Source: Thiobacillus sp.
GTDB taxonomy: Bacteria; Pseudomonadota; Gammaproteobacteria; Burkholderiales; Thiobacillaceae
Length of the DNA stretch: 33,067 nt
Assembly (NCBI GenBank): GCA_024709425.1
Contig: JANJWS010000040.1
Span: 1-33,067, forward strand
Reading direction: 5' to 3'
The stretch's first letter is position 1. Each line of letters starts with the position of its first letter. The notes beneath the pieces were generated by a model that did no database searches, was not told the origin of the DNA, and saw nothing but the letters and a program-made list of their open reading frames with translations. Position numbers and translations under genes: made by a program. This document shows, in pieces, positions 5,277 through 28,954 of this stretch.

Positions 5277-6095
5277 ATGCGCTGGATCCAGGCCGGATTC
5301 TTCGTGCTGGTGGTGCGTCCGTTGCTCGCCGTGGTGCTGGGGATCAACCTGCGCCACGCCGGGCGCCTTCCGAAAACGGGGCCGGCGATCCTCGCCGCCA
5401 ACCACAACAGCCATCTCGACACGTTATTGCTGATGAGCCTGTATCCGCTGGCGCAGTTGCATCGCGTGCGGCCGGTGGCCGCGGCCGACTACTTCCTGAA
5501 GAACCGCATCGTCGCGTGGTTTGCCCTGAACGTCCTGCGCATTTTGCCGCTGTCGCGGCGACCGAGCGGGCGTGGCGCGTTGCCACCCCTGACCATGAAA
5601 CCCGCCATGCCCGCTTCCCTCTCCCCAGCCCTCTCCCGCAAGCGGGCGAGGGGGATGTGGAATCGCGTCGCGATGTTTCTCGCCAAGAAGGCGCCCCCTC
5701 CCCAACCCTCCTTCCGGTCGGCGGAGGGGGCAGGCGTCATGCCCAAACCGATTAACGAAAAACCGCTCGCGCACATCGAGGCGGCGCTGGCCGCGGGCGA
5801 CATCCTTATCCTGTTTCCCGAAGGCTCGCGTGGCGAGCCGGAAAAGCGTGGCGAGCTGAAGAGCGGGATCGCCCATCTGATGGAGCAGGCGCCGCAGGTG
5901 CCCGTCGTGCCGGTGTTCCTGCGCGGGCTGGGGAAGGCGCTGCCGAAGGGGGAGTGGGTGCCAGTGCCGTTCTTTGCGGACGGTTACGTCGGTGAGCCGC
6001 TGGTCTGGCAGGGCAGCCGGGCGGCGACGATGGCGGCGCTGAGCGAGCGCTTCGCGGCGCTCGAACGCGAGAGCGTGCCGCTGGCGTGGGAATGA
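5277..6095 (+). CDS. 1-acyl-sn-glycerol-3-phosphate acyltransferase-like protein (PlsC family) with an inserted repeat
   Basis: A predicted acyltransferase that would make phosphatidate for the CdsA-like enzyme encoded just upstream. It has an N-terminal hydrophobic segment, the catalytic H43-x4-D48 motif (NHNSHLD) and the FPEGSRG motif at 180-186. The 272 residues exceed what the fold needs. Between ILPLSR (ending at 94) and the PLAHIEAAL helix (from 163) lies a Pro/Ala/Arg-rich stretch of about 65 residues; E. coli PlsC bridges this distance with about 25. The extra DNA is a palindromic repeat also found downstream of the rhodanese gene. The frame stays open through it. The insert may form a surface loop or inactivate the enzyme. 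ATG at 5277 follows the upstream stop by 2 bp. Confidence 0.85.
   Translation: MRWIQAGFFVLVVRPLLAVVLGINLRHAGRLPKTGPAILAANHNSHLDTLLLMSLYPLAQLHRVRPVAAADYFLKNRIVAWFALNVLRILPLSRRPSGRGALPPLTMKPAMPASLSPALSRKRARGMWNRVAMFLAKKAPPPQPSFRSAEGAGVMPKPINEKPLAHIEAALAAGDILILFPEGSRGEPEKRGELKSGIAHLMEQAPQVPVVPVFLRGLGKALPKGEWVPVPFFADGYVGEPLVWQGSRAATMAALSERFAALERESVPLAWE
5566..5687 (+). repeat. Dispersed palindromic repeat, copy A, in frame inside the acyltransferase gene
   Basis: About 120 bp that align, inverted, with 25402-25522. Shared blocks include TGGCGCGTTGCC, ATGAAAC-CGCCA, CCCG-TTCCCTC and a CCCTCTCCC / GAGGGGG hairpin. A further block, GTG...CGC-TCGCG-TGTTT, lies downstream. A second palindromic C-rich stretch (CCCTCC ... 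GGAGGG, about 5706-5730) follows in the same gene. It supplies about 40 codons without breaking the frame. Confidence 0.7.
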
Positions 6096-19436: not shown

Positions 19437-19540
19437 GTGAAAGCAAGCTGCAATCTCGATCCAAACCCTCCAAGGGGGTCAACCGAAAGGCGGCTACTGC
19501 AAGCGGGCGTTCGGGAAGGGCGTGATGGGCGTCGCCTCAT
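19437..19540 (+). repeat. 104-bp inverted repeat, left copy, bordering the gene-cassette cluster
   Basis: Inverted relative to 20990-21093, with about 97 of 104 positions identical. The 7 differences are concentrated in the part after CGATCCAAA. It begins 19 bp after the NUDIX stop. The flanks show no direct target duplication. Between this repeat and 19671 no gene is seen; short open stretches there lack coding character. Confidence 0.9.
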
Positions 19541-19671
19541 TGGCCTTGGTGGCCCGTCTTGACGCCCCCGCATTGCGTCGCTTCGTGGCCAAGAGCAGCC
19601 AGTGAACTTGGCTCCAAGCGACATGGAGGACGCCATTCCTCCAGTCGCAAGCAGGAGCTGGATTCAGAGGC

Positions 19672-19731
19672 GCTCCATTTGACGCTCATTTCGCTGCGCT
19701 TCATTCGCGCATATGAGCTTGGTCGTTGGGC
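19672..19731 (+). other. attC-like recombination site 0 (degenerate left arm)
   Basis: It ends with a perfect R' core GTTGGGC (19725-19731) directly before the first cassette gene. Inner arms GCTCAT and ATGAGC can pair, with 5-6 bp between them and the outer boxes. The expected R'' (GCCCAAC-like) is degraded to GCTCCAT. The ATG of the next gene is 3 bp after the core, as expected for a cassette start. Confidence 0.55.
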
Positions 19732-19734
19732 GTC

Positions 19735-20166
19735 ATGAAAATCAGTCTCCGCAAAGTATTCTCAACTGATTGGCCAGCCTTAGCTGCGAGCGTGGGAATC
19801 CCGATCATATGGGTAATTCATTTCGTATTCCCGCATCTTCAAGAATCGGCACTTCCGCTTTCTCTCTGGTTTCCTGTCAGCCTCTCGGGTGCACTAATCT
19901 TTTGGCTGTTCTGGCGCATTGGTCGGGTAGCCAAGCTGTTCGCTCATGGGCAACTTGCTGTAGGAAGAATCACTCATCTAAGGCTCGCCAAAGATCGCGG
20001 TCGTCTTGAGTTCGAGTTCGAGTATCAGGGCAAACCCATATCAACCTGGTCGCCCGTCCATCAAACCAAGGCGGTGCTATCACTCACCCCTGGGACAGTC
20101 GTTGAGGTGCTGTTCGATACAAGCCGCCCAACCCGAGCTATCGTGAGGCATCTTTATGCAGCATGA
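19735..20166 (+). CDS. Cassette-borne DUF3592-like membrane protein
   Basis: A 143-residue protein beginning MKISLRKVFSTDWPAL. Two hydrophobic segments (about 14-34 and 42-62) are followed by a beta-rich soluble part. That part has VGRITHLRLAKDRGRLEFEFEY and ends VEVLFDTSRPTRAIVRHLYAA, the DUF3592 pattern of a Tyr-rich strand and a late D-x-x-x-P turn. Its function is unknown. The ATG lies 3 bp after the R' core of an attC-like site and the stop lies 31 bp before the next attC, so it fills one integron cassette. Base composition is visibly less G+C-rich than the neighbours, a sign of transfer. Confidence 0.7.
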   Translation: MKISLRKVFSTDWPALAASVGIPIIWVIHFVFPHLQESALPLSLWFPVSLSGALIFWLFWRIGRVAKLFAHGQLAVGRITHLRLAKDRGRLEFEFEYQGKPISTWSPVHQTKAVLSLTPGTVVEVLFDTSRPTRAIVRHLYAA

Positions 20167-20921: not shown

Positions 20922-20989
20922 GGTGCTTTGACCGGTAAGTGGCGAAGCCGGTCATATGAAGCGGTCAGCCTGGCAGGCCGCTTTGCCCG

Positions 20990-21093
20990 ATGAGGCGACG
21001 CCCATCACGCCCTTCCCGAACGCCCGCTTGCAGTAGCCGCCTTTCGATTAGCCGCCTTGGCGAATTTGGATCGAGATTGCAGCTTGCTTTCAC
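20990..21093 (-). repeat. 104-bp inverted repeat, right copy
   Basis: Reverse complement of 19437-19540 with 7 differences. It lies 42 bp from the stop of metH. Together the copies enclose all three attC sites and both cassettes, so recombination between them could invert the enclosed cluster. Confidence 0.9.
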
Positions 21094-21135: not shown

Positions 21136-24903
<3,768 letters not shown>

Positions 24904-25401: not shown

Positions 25402-25522
25402 GTTAACGCCGAAACAGCGCGAAGCGCTCACATTGTCCCCCTCTCCCTCGGGGAGAGAGCAGGGGTGAGGGAAACGGGTGTGGCGTGTTTCATCGTCATG
25501 GGGGCAACGCGCCATGCCCGTC
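25402..25522 (-). repeat. Dispersed palindromic repeat, copy C, between the rhodanese gene and xthA
   Basis: About 120 bp that align in inverted orientation with copy A at 5566-5687 along their whole length, including both flanks of the CCCTCTCCC/GGGAGAGAG hairpin. It fills nearly the whole gap and runs into the last codon of xthA. This intergenic copy shows that the element in the acyltransferase gene is a repeat and not native coding sequence. Confidence 0.75.
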
Positions 25523-26294
25523 AGGCCGGCGCCGCCACCTCGGCCAGCACGGGCGCGTGATCCGACGGCCGTTCCAGCTTGCGCATGTCGCGGTCGATGC
25601 TGGCGGCGGTGCAGCGCGCCGCCAGCGGCGCTGACAGCAGGATGTGGTCGATGCGCAGGCCGTGGTTGCGGCGGAACCCCATCATGCGGTAATCCCACCA
25701 GGAAAAGCTCTTCTCCGGCTGCTCGAACAGGCGAAAACTGTCCGCAAGACCGAGTGCCAGCAGGCCCCTGAAGCGTTCGCGCTCCGGTTCCGACACCAGC
25801 ACGCTGCCTTCCCACGCCTTGGGATCGTGCACGTCGCGATCTTCCGGGGCGACGTTGTAGTCGCCCAGCACGGCGAGTTGCGGGTGGCGCGCGAGTTCGT
25901 CCTTCAGCCACGCCGCCAGCGCGTCGAACCAGGCGAGCTTGTAGGCATATTTGTCGGAGCCTACACTCTGGCCGTTCGGGCAGTACACGCACACGAGTCG
26001 GACGCCATCGATGGTGGCGGCGATCACACGTTTCTGCTCATCGTCCAGCCCCGGGATGCCGACCTGGACGTCGCGCGGGTCGGATCGGCTGACGATCGCG
26101 ACACCGTTGTAGGTTTTCTGTCCGGCGAATGTGGCCCGGTAGCCCGCGGCTTGCAGCTCGGCGATCGGGAAATTCTCGTCCGTAAGCTTGGTTTCCTGCA
26201 GGCACACCGCGTCGGGTTGGCGGGTGGCGAGAAAATCCAGCAGTTGCGGCAAGCGGATCTTGAGGGAGTTGACGTTCCAGGCGGCGATCTTCAT
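25521..26294 (-). CDS. xth: Exodeoxyribonuclease III family protein
   Basis: A 257-residue AP endonuclease/3' exonuclease of base-excision repair. It begins [18 protein letters not shown] (metal-binding Asn). [12 protein letters not shown] follows with the catalytic Glu, then [28 protein letters not shown] carries the Asp/Asn pair, SWWDYR and LRIDHILLS come next, and the protein ends PSDHAPV with the general-base His. All catalytic motifs of the EEP fold are intact. The start ATG 26294 is natural, since the Met-Lys-Ile strand is the first of the fold. A repeat element abuts its 3' end; the DUF4124 gene lies 21 bp upstream on the same strand. Confidence 0.95.
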
Positions 26295-26914: not shown

Positions 26915-28954
26915 TCACACCATGCCGTTGTGGCGCAGCAGCGCGTCGATGGCCGGTTCGCGCCCGCGGAAGGCCTTGAACGATTCGAGTGCCGGGCGTG
27001 CGCCGCCCTGGGCGAGAATTTCGCTCCAGAAACGGTGGCCGATTTCCGGATTCAACACGCCGCCGTAGCCCTCGGCCTCGTCCTCGAACAGTGCATAGGC
27101 GTCGGCGGAGAGCACTTCCGCCCACTTGTAGCTGTAGTAGCCCGCTGCGTAGCCGCCGGCAAAGATGTGCGAGAAGTTGTTGGGGAAGCGGTTGTACGCC
27201 GGCGGCACGATGACCGCGGTTTTCTTCCGTATTTCCTCGATCAGGTCCTGCGCGCTGCGCGTCCCGTTGGGGTCGAAGTCGTCATGCAGCTGCATGTCGA
27301 AGCTGGCGAACTCGATCTGGCGCAGGGTTTGCAGGCCGGCCTGGAAGTTCTTCGCCGCGAGCATCTTGTCGAAGAGTTCGCGCGGCAGCGCCTCTCCGCT
27401 GTCGACGTGGGCGGTCATGTGCTTCAGCACGTCCCATTCCCAGCAGAAGTTCTCCATGAACTGGCTGGGCAGTTCGACCGCGTCCCATTCGACGCCGTTG
27501 ATGCCCGACACGCCGAGTTCCTCGACCTGGGTGAGGAGATGGTGCAGGCCGTGGCCGGCTTCGTGGAACAGCGTGATGACCTCGTCGTGGGTGAACAGCG
27601 CCGGCTTGCCGCCGACCGGCGCGGAGAAGTTGCAGTTGAGATACGCTACCGGTGTCTGGATGCCGTCGGCCTTGCGGCGGCGGGTGATGACGTCGTCCAT
27701 CCACGCGCCGCCGCGCTTGGAGGCGCGGGCGTACAAATCGAGGTAGAACTGGCCGATGCGCTGGCCGGCGCGGTCGTAGAGTGTGTAGAACTTGACGTCG
27801 GGGTGCCACACCGGGGCGCGATCCTCGCGGATGGACAACCCGTAGAGCGTCTCGACCAGCTTGAACAGGCCGTCCAGCACGCGCGGCTCGGGGAAATACT
27901 GCTTCACTTCCTGGTCGGAGAAACTGTAGCGCACCACGCGCAGCTTTTCCGACACGTAGGCGTTGTCCCAGGCTTCCAGCGTTTCAAGCCCCAGCTCGCT
28001 GGCGGCGAACGCCTTCAGTTCGGCGAAATCCTGTTCCGCATAGGGACGCGCGCGCGCGGCGAGTTCGTCGAGAAACTTCAGCACTTCGGCGGGGGAATCG
28101 GCCATCTTGGCTTCCAGCGAGACCTGGGCGTAGCTCGCGAATCCCAACAGTTCTGCGGCTTCACGGCGCAACCGAAGAACCTGCGAGATCAATGGCGTGT
28201 TGTCGAGTTCGGTCGGGCCGAATTCCGAGGCGCGCGTGACATAGGCGCGGTACAGCGTTTCGCGCAGGCCGCGGTTGTCGGCGTACTGCATCACCGGCAG
28301 GTAGGACGGCATCTGCAGGGTGATCTTCCAGCCCGACTTGCCGTCGGCCTCGGCCGCGGCCTGCATCATCGCCAGCACGTCCTCCGGCACGCCGGCAAGT
28401 TCGCCAGCGTGCTCGACGTACAGAGCGAAGGCGTTGGTGGCGTCGAGCAGGTTTTCCTCGAATTTCGCCGACAGTTGCGCCAGTTCCTCCTGCAGCTGCA
28501 TGAAGCGCGCCTTCTTGTCCGCGGGCAGTTCGGCGCCGCCCAGACGAAAATCGCGCAGTTCGTTGTCGACGATCTTTCGGCGGGCAGGCGACAGCGTTGC
28601 GAACGCGGGGCTCGCCGCGAGCGCCTTGTATTTGGCGAACAAGGCTTCGTTCTGTCCGAGCTCGGCGTAGTAAACGGTGATCTTCGGCAGGTTGGCGTTG
28701 TAGACCTCGCGCAGTTCGGGCGAATCCATCACCGAATGCAGGTGCGACACCTGGCCCCAGGCGCGGCCAAGTCGTTCATTCGTGTCTTCCATCGGGGTGA
28801 TGAAGGCGTCCCATTCGGCCGGGGTGTCGGGGGCTTCGGCCCGCTGCACCGCGGCACGGCACTCGGCCAGCAGCTGGTCGATCGCCGGGGTGACGTGTTC
28901 GGGTTTGAAGTCGGCAAAGCGGGGCAGGCCGGAGAAATCGAGCAGGGGGTTCAT
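26915..28954 (-). CDS. prlC: Oligopeptidase A (M3 family zinc metallopeptidase)
   Basis: A cytoplasmic oligopeptidase that degrades peptides released by larger proteases and cleaved signal peptides. With the start at MNPLLDFSGLPRF (28954) it has 679 residues, normal for PrlC. An in-frame extension of 19 residues to 29011 is Arg/Pro-rich and unlikely. The zinc site HEAGH is at 464-468 (TLFHEAGHGLHH), with the third ligand Glu about 25 residues later near GVEWDAVELPSQFMENF. FAGGYAAGYYSYKWAEVL near the C terminus is the substrate-binding Tyr/His loop. It is divergent from the carbonic anhydrase gene, with a palindromic ATTATAAT between them. Confidence 0.95.
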   Translation of the reverse strand: MNPLLDFSGLPRFADFKPEHVTPAIDQLLAECRAAVQRAEAPDTPAEWDAFITPMEDTNERLGRAWGQVSHLHSVMDSPELREVYNANLPKITVYYAELGQNEALFAKYKALAASPAFATLSPARRKIVDNELRDFRLGGAELPADKKARFMQLQEELAQLSAKFEENLLDATNAFALYVEHAGELAGVPEDVLAMMQAAAEADGKSGWKITLQMPSYLPVMQYADNRGLRETLYRAYVTRASEFGPTELDNTPLISQVLRLRREAAELLGFASYAQVSLEAKMADSPAEVLKFLDELAARARPYAEQDFAELKAFAASELGLETLEAWDNAYVSEKLRVVRYSFSDQEVKQYFPEPRVLDGLFKLVETLYGLSIREDRAPVWHPDVKFYTLYDRAGQRIGQFYLDLYARASKRGGAWMDDVITRRRKADGIQTPVAYLNCNFSAPVGGKPALFTHDEVITLFHEAGHGLHHLLTQVEELGVSGINGVEWDAVELPSQFMENFCWEWDVLKHMTAHVDSGEALPRELFDKMLAAKNFQAGLQTLRQIEFASFDMQLHDDFDPNGTRSAQDLIEEIRKKTAVIVPPAYNRFPNNFSHIFAGGYAAGYYSYKWAEVLSADAYALFEDEAEGYGGVLNPEIGHRFWSEILAQGGARPALESFKAFRGREPAIDALLRHNGMV

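Follow-up and report, generated by a model that had tools for sequence, protein, structure and literature searches.

Dispersed palindromic repeats read in frame within a PlsC-like acyltransferase and other conserved genes of a Thiobacillus genome

The window (the whole 33,067-nucleotide stretch of Thiobacillus DNA analyzed here) contains an open reading frame for a PlsC-like acyltransferase whose translation matches the Pfam Acyltransferase family (PF01553; E 4e-16, above the cut-off) in two separate stretches. The motifs H43-x4-D48 and F180-P-E-G, read from the translation, are both present and lie on either side of an insertion through which the frame remains open; the first-pass annotation of this DNA had described both the position of the insertion and the unbroken frame correctly. 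In a codon alignment, residues 97-162 replace five residues of three same-genus orthologues (L062, L063 and L065), a net gain of 61 codons (183 nt) over three of the four orthologues aligned; the fourth, L064, has five extra residues of its own in this loop. The insertion had originally been given as 65 residues, mostly the product of a single dispersed palindrome. That repeat, which we call element A, does account for about two thirds of it, but the insertion extends beyond the repeat first described, and most of the rest belongs to a second dispersed repeat, B, which completes it. Repeat B ends in ATGCCCAAACCGATTAACG; when positions 5684-5757 were searched against the same genome, 37 places matched at E<=10, the query's own among them. 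The features of the window are collected in Table 1.

Table 1. Coordinates of the genes, repeats and insertions discussed, in window positions
Feature	Position	Strand	Basis
PlsC-like acyltransferase ORF, 272 aa, host of the insert	5277..6095	+	Pfam PF01553; genus and order orthologues
Dispersed palindromic element A, read in frame	5563..5686	+	27-copy alignment, genome search
Hairpin 1 of element A, 13-bp stem AGCGGGCGTGGCG / CGCCATGCCCGCT	5565..5615	+	DNA fold of whole element
Triplex-type core of element A	5612..5654	+	Covariance model, E 6e-12; the copy is itself in the model's alignment
Second dispersed repeat B, completing the PlsC insert; ends approximate	5693..5757	+	Own-genome search, alignment with 11 other copies
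metH (B12-dependent methionine synthase, 1255 aa), second in-frame host	21136..24903	-	MetH domains in Pfam
metH in-frame insert, about residues 204-231	24211..24294	-	Skipped by orthologues, unmatched in solved structure
Triplex-type core in metH insert	24251-24293	-	Core hits
Intergenic copy of element A	25403..25524	-	Pair match, alignment, stop-codon scan, neighbour genes

PlsC is patchily distributed in the genus, being detected at E<=1e-10 (beyond the element's own matches) in five of the 35 other genomes. Three of these (G008, G025, G030) give two-piece matches to about residues 1-97 and 156-272 of the window protein, the second piece in G033 being 162-272, and the match in G024 is more distant than these four. 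In a sample of the order the protein was found at E<=1e-20 in 9 of 149 genomes besides the present one (G000), each time as two pieces with no insert. Genus and order orthologues alike thus skip roughly residues 100-160 of the query, and none of the five genus and nine order genomes that have PlsC carries the same insertion. A fold prediction from the single sequence, made without an alignment, was useless (pLDDT 43.8).

Element A was delimited from an alignment of 27 copies, some of them partial, set in a single orientation; this places its start three bases to the left of the annotated one. The element begins with a YTAA end, followed by a 13-bp hairpin, a core CCCTCTCCCC..CCCTCTCCCGCAAGCGGGCGAGGGGG, a small hairpin GAATCGCTTCGCGATG and a second YTAA end. 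The aligned ends are mostly YTAACGGG and CACGYTAA, and are inverted (YTAACG/CGYTAA); since the end letters, compared by eye, disagree within a copy, no target-site duplication is evident. The DNA-fold z score is -2.2 for the plsC copy and -0.9 and -4.0 for two others. Covariation in hairpin 1 is not convincing: among the genome's own copies 269 of 325 cells are paired, a value reached by 131 of 500 shuffles, and among all copies 707 of 816, reached by 4 of 500 shuffles, a result that can arise from relatedness alone. In some copies the two end modules enclose a different centre. In two of them (L024 and L027, on contigs C75 and C93) this is another middle of about 90 bp (GATGAAGCCTCTAAG...), which suggests, from these alignments, that the middle modules may be exchangeable. 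No Rfam family reaches its gathering score in the window.

The repeat is abundant in its own genome (2.71 Mb, 109 contigs). A search with positions 5555-5745 gave 57 matches at E<=10, the best 23 of which, the plsC copy included, are near full length, and with the core pattern TCTCCCGCNNGCGGGNGAGGG there are 33 hits over the two strands (19 and 14), with none for the reversed control. The pair of copies from which the annotation started is real: positions 5567-5679 align with 25520-25411 of the opposite strand over 116 columns at 78% identity (E 3e-20), and the second copy indeed has a rhodanese-domain ORF on one side and an exonuclease III-type gene on the other. What had been taken for shared flanks of the two copies, however, is the element's own 5' part, and the true flanks vary between copies. 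With about 23 long copies of A, 94 core sites and the empty sites in PlsC orthologues, the view that this is a repeat and not native coding DNA is supported; the rival idea, of a native variable region or domain of PlsC, could appeal only to the five extra residues of L064, and is ruled out by an insertion that consists of two dispersed repeats and is absent from the orthologues examined.

Most copies of A are situated differently from that in plsC. The first-pass annotation had pointed to copies inside genes, and to their reading phase, as the matter to be counted; such copies exist, but a codon-usage scan of 28 copies of A placed only two inside genes with an ORF running through, those in plsC and in an ABC transporter ATPase gene, and in a later census 2 of the 20 testable copies of A (22 in all) were in frame in genes. 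The phase is identical in the two genes and corresponds to one of the two frames open in the consensus, one per strand. More often, A abuts a gene: in 12 of 27 copies, as judged (some weakly) by codon-usage score, the end of the element holds the stop codon of the adjoining gene. When eight of these 12 genes were tested in Pfam, six were above the cut-off (glutamate-tRNA ligase type, cytochrome c assembly, ChrB, M20 peptidase, beta-CASP and glycosyltransferase), one had sub-cut-off matches and one had none; a further one of the 12 is the window's exonuclease III-type gene, whose stop codon is the terminal TGA (25521-25523) of the intergenic copy. Of the 81 long copies from other genomes, where the coding caller was trained on little sequence, none passes the requirement that both flanks be coding; these 81 include two that are the same T. 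denitrificans RG places counted twice and 14 loci that were not listed by name and were assigned to Kiruna2. Under looser limits 14 ORFs appeared at 84 copies (three from the own genome), and by eye only the ABC ATPase is interrupted inside.

This ATPase, encoded on contig C64 (Pfam ABC_tran, E 2e-27), has matches at E<=1e-30 in 29 of the 35 other genus genomes and in none of 24 genomes from other families of the order. Twenty-seven of the 29 matches come as two pieces that skip the insert; the other two are a single near-full match in G028 and a C-terminal piece in G030. In the loop occupied by A in G000, the G028 orthologue has a different palindrome, TGAGC..GAAGGGCTCAGGA (L204, G028:C41:211193-211216). 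With up to two mismatches allowed, the pattern of this palindrome has 29 strand hits in G028 (one exact, the loop itself, five with one mismatch and 23 with two) and none in G000. The same loop has an AAQGKP-like stretch in three other species (L207, L219, L221).

The window contains another in-frame insertion, in metH, which is skipped in all 35 of the other genus genomes sampled, while the flanks match these relatives at 86-96%; its place is likewise unmatched against the best solved methionine synthase. It was the occurrence of this second insertion in the same window that led us to undertake a census of the core, with a covariance model built from 16 of the genome's own copies. The model gave 123 matches at E<=0.01, which merged into 94 distinct sites: 14 in frame in genes, 58 outside genes, 15 flanked by coding sequence whose frame does not stay open across the site, and seven that were dropped as too near a contig end or lacking sequence, leaving 87 testable. 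The 14 in-frame sites fall in 12 genes, namely plsC, the ABC ATPase gene, metH, leuS (three sites), hypD, hypF, pepN, the gene for an error-prone DNA polymerase, hrpA, ygiQ, an AddB-like ORF and a small ORF on contig C86 that we take to be Uma2-like.

In the hosts other than plsC, the ABC ATPase and metH, the inserts were recognized by comparison with a profile or a structure. When NCBIfam was applied to the ten further ORF pieces, eight were above the cut-off (two of them from the same leuS), the AddB-like piece fell below it and the C86 piece had no match; the last two are the weakest hosts. Leucyl-tRNA synthetase has three separate core sites in its gene (contig C93, at 40008, 40447 and 41109; L188, L286), and against the best solved structure two stretches, of 19 and 27 residues, are clearly additional, with eight more extra residues near the third core. 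HypD and PepN each have an extra stretch of 10 residues at the core in the corresponding comparison; at the pepN site an additional in-frame signal on the opposite strand was left out. In LeuRS the query stretch is longer than that of the profile (826 vs 757), as it is in the error-prone polymerase (682 vs 631) and in YgiQ (634 vs 557).

Several other features were noted in passing. The hypF gene (L297, contig C82:1-2649) contains an array of repeat-derived sequence that includes four core sites, of which one was called in frame; the same contig encodes hypD, likewise with an insert. Three of the 15 sites with coding flanks but no open passage (C40, C90 and C52), at which flanks in one frame are separated by a stop, were considered as broken or bypassed genes and then read as gaps between two genes. 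In the window, an inverted repeat pair of 118 nt (19437-19554 and 20976-21093; 89% complementary) is separated by 1.4 kb, and the ORF between its arms (19726-20163) belongs to no Pfam family.

The core is poor in stop codons, with a mean of 5.49 of the six frames open per copy (93 copies); the corresponding means are 4.70 in pieces drawn at random from the window and 4.66 in cores after shuffling. Core copies are nonetheless depleted in genes: 14 of 87 are in genes, compared with 158 of 400 random positions drawn from the window only and scored with the same caller (odds ratio 0.29, p 2e-5). The caller marks no more than these 158 random positions as in-gene, so that the 14 in-gene sites are a floor. 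Five strand and phase classes are represented among the 14, sense phase 1 being the commonest (6 of 14), and the insert peptides are rich in Pro, Gly, Ser and Arg.

Element A and its core also occur in other genomes. The genus assignment itself is borne out by two loci of the same-genus genome G002, L073 and L082, in each of which all 156 sampled 40-mers recur in records of Thiobacillus denitrificans strain RG. Any match to A at E<=1e-5 was found in at least 17 of the 36 genus genomes, G000 included, in most of them to the core alone. The pattern of the 5' half occurs in 94 stretches of a collection of genome contigs, and the 80 of these that were listed all come from Gallionella, Gallionellales, Gallionellaceae, Nitrosomonadales or Thiobacillus records. 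The Kiruna2 bin-1694 metagenome-assembled genome has dozens of copies (e.g. L096, L099, L112), many at contig ends, and the 60 that were fetched share an identical 56-nt 5' end; to judge from these sequences, it is as if the element had recently been active there. At one locus (L072, G013:C2, about 27705-27824) A lies directly 5' of a signal-peptide/binding-protein-like ORF, with its ATGTTTCACGC end as a candidate start codon. No transposase could be tied to the element: across the genus, RAYT-like PF01797 genes (29 of 36 genomes with a match, two in G000) do not track the copy number of A, and G023 has 31 matches to A, mostly to the core, yet no PF01797 gene.

The most familiar protein-coding palindromes are the palindromic elements (RPEs) of Rickettsia, for which reduced genomes and weak selection have often been invoked; the Thiobacillus host is a free-living sulfur oxidiser. 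Like the RPEs, the repeats described here are palindromes of roughly 100-150 bp that lie within one lineage in frame in conserved genes, with more than one insert in some hosts: a dispersed palindrome is open in frame in plsC and the ABC ATPase gene, and core copies lie in 12 genes. In contrast to RPEs, most full copies are intergenic and several frames are used, the comparison being one of descriptions, not of sequences. The first-pass annotation's likening of A to the RPEs serves as an apt working likeness, in so far as both are stop-poor palindromic repeats in frame in conserved genes. The setting that it stressed, an unrelated G+C-rich genome, is not the first such case: REPs inside genes have already been published for Thauera, Xanthomonas and other bacteria (PMC3733652).

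RPEs and other fused MITEs are reviewed in PMC2229807 and PMC10969869, and PMC3733652 (Di Nocera 2013) also covers RPEs. It describes REPs inside the genes of several species, Thauera included, with ends that supply TAG stops, and clusters in Thauera and R. conorii that encode 43-82 aa; genes for DnaE2 and an RNA helicase are among those hit. These GTAG/CGTC REPs resemble A in occurring in genes of G+C-rich bacteria and in providing stops with their ends, but A is longer, ends in YTAA with no GTAG or CGTC tag, and has a triplex-motif core. REPs near stop codons are treated in PMC12306157. The core itself has the order CCCTCTCCC-loop-GGGAGAGGG-loop-third block, with blocks as in the E. coli TMECO; compared with the latter, it shows the polypyrimidine-polypurine hairpin and third block of the TM/BoxC repeats. 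According to PMC4666352 the triplex motif is present in more than 260 genomes and is always intergenic in E. coli MG1655, whereas here 14 of the 87 testable sites are in frame in genes. The enterobacterial MITEs ERIC, YAPL and RU-3 are likewise short and carry open frames, and some have become in-frame fusions with genes (PMC2229807); they belong to a different lineage, and neither a TA target nor a target-site duplication is evident for A. Among the titles that the literature searches listed, none concerns element A or translated triplex-motif repeats in Thiobacillus. Protein-coding palindromes are known in kind; it is the type of repeat and the number of genes hit that are unusual here, and both the set of hosts and the extent of the inserts are wider than first noted, so that the annotation had understated its finding.

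We consider it quite probable that stop-poor repeats have been inserted, in a near-neutral fashion, into loops that tolerate them, working much as the RPEs do and without the GTAG/CGTC tag. Element A would then be a short palindromic repeat, non-autonomous and probably mobile in the past, that belongs to Thiobacillus and bacteria of Gallionella type and is built of a 5' hairpin, a triplex-type polypyrimidine/polypurine core, a small 3' hairpin and YTAA ends. Its copies would settle mostly between genes, often abutting one, in which case the end of the element would supply the stop codon; a copy that enters a coding region would survive only in a loop that tolerates it, and only with the frame kept and no stop brought in. 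For plsC this would mean A and B translated as 61 net residues, placed after LPLSRRP and ahead of the PLAHIEAAL stretch that precedes FPEG; as many as ten further genes, leuS three times over, would likewise have taken in other repeats that share the core. The cell, to judge from the open frames, probably makes proteins with extra repeat-encoded loops, and these enzymes would presumably stay active.

It is unlikely, though worth weighing, that the copy in plsC is instead a recent inactivating insertion whose frame is open by chance, in an enzyme now dead. The frame would be kept by chance in one case out of three, the core is nearly free of stops, and the gene is patchy in the genus. At 13 of its 126 positions the plsC copy departs from the consensus, much as intergenic copies do, and only three of these changes are private, so that the insertion could be a recent one, in a gene that is dead and has had no time to decay. 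Plain dN for the window plsC is somewhat high as well (0.14-0.17, vs 0.05-0.13 for insert-free pairs); the adjacent cdsA has the same tendency (0.060-0.071 vs 0.044-0.048), with dN/dS of 0.10-0.14 for the window pairs against three relatives. Against inactivation, the motifs are intact on both sides of the insert, the 14 in-frame copies include those in leuS and metH, genes unlikely to be dead, and dN/dS outside the insert is like that of the insert-free orthologues (0.16-0.22 against four orthologues; 0.14-0.27 for the six insert-free pairs), a ratio that spans the whole branch and so is no proof of selection after the insertion. That the added loops were recruited, be it for binding, for localisation, for variation driven by instability or for some other function, we regard as improbable: retention of a high-copy repeat in several conserved proteins, and a different dispersed repeat at the same place in the G028 ATPase, would suit it, but the spread of in-gene copies over five frame and strand classes, the Pro/Gly/Ser/Arg-rich peptides and the overall avoidance of genes do not. 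Still more improbable is an assembly or binning artefact that joined repeats into genes. The assembly is in 109 contigs with 6.1% estimated contamination, and repeats are where assemblies err; both halves of plsC, of the ABC ATPase gene and of metH, however, each correspond to one orthologue with a continuous frame, the plsC copy is unlike every other aligned copy, and the similarity of the metH flanks to genus relatives speaks in the same sense.

Beyond the near-neutral insertion of such repeats, a broader reading can be put forward, at slightly less than even odds. The triplex-type repeats of the Thiobacillus lineage might have become a genome-wide source of in-frame protein insertions; the near absence of stops from any of the motif's six frames would explain why even indispensable enzymes are reached, LeuRS by three insertions in leuS; one and the same loop, that of the ABC ATPase in G000 and G028, might then have been hit independently by different families of repeats in different species. 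The empty sites available in Thiobacillus, together with inserts in enzymes of solved structure, make the cost and the fate of repeat-derived residues measurable. For annotators there is also a warning, in that Pro/Gly/Ser-rich insert peptides in genomes of this sort, such as SPALSRKRARG and PLPQAGEG, can be repeat-derived.
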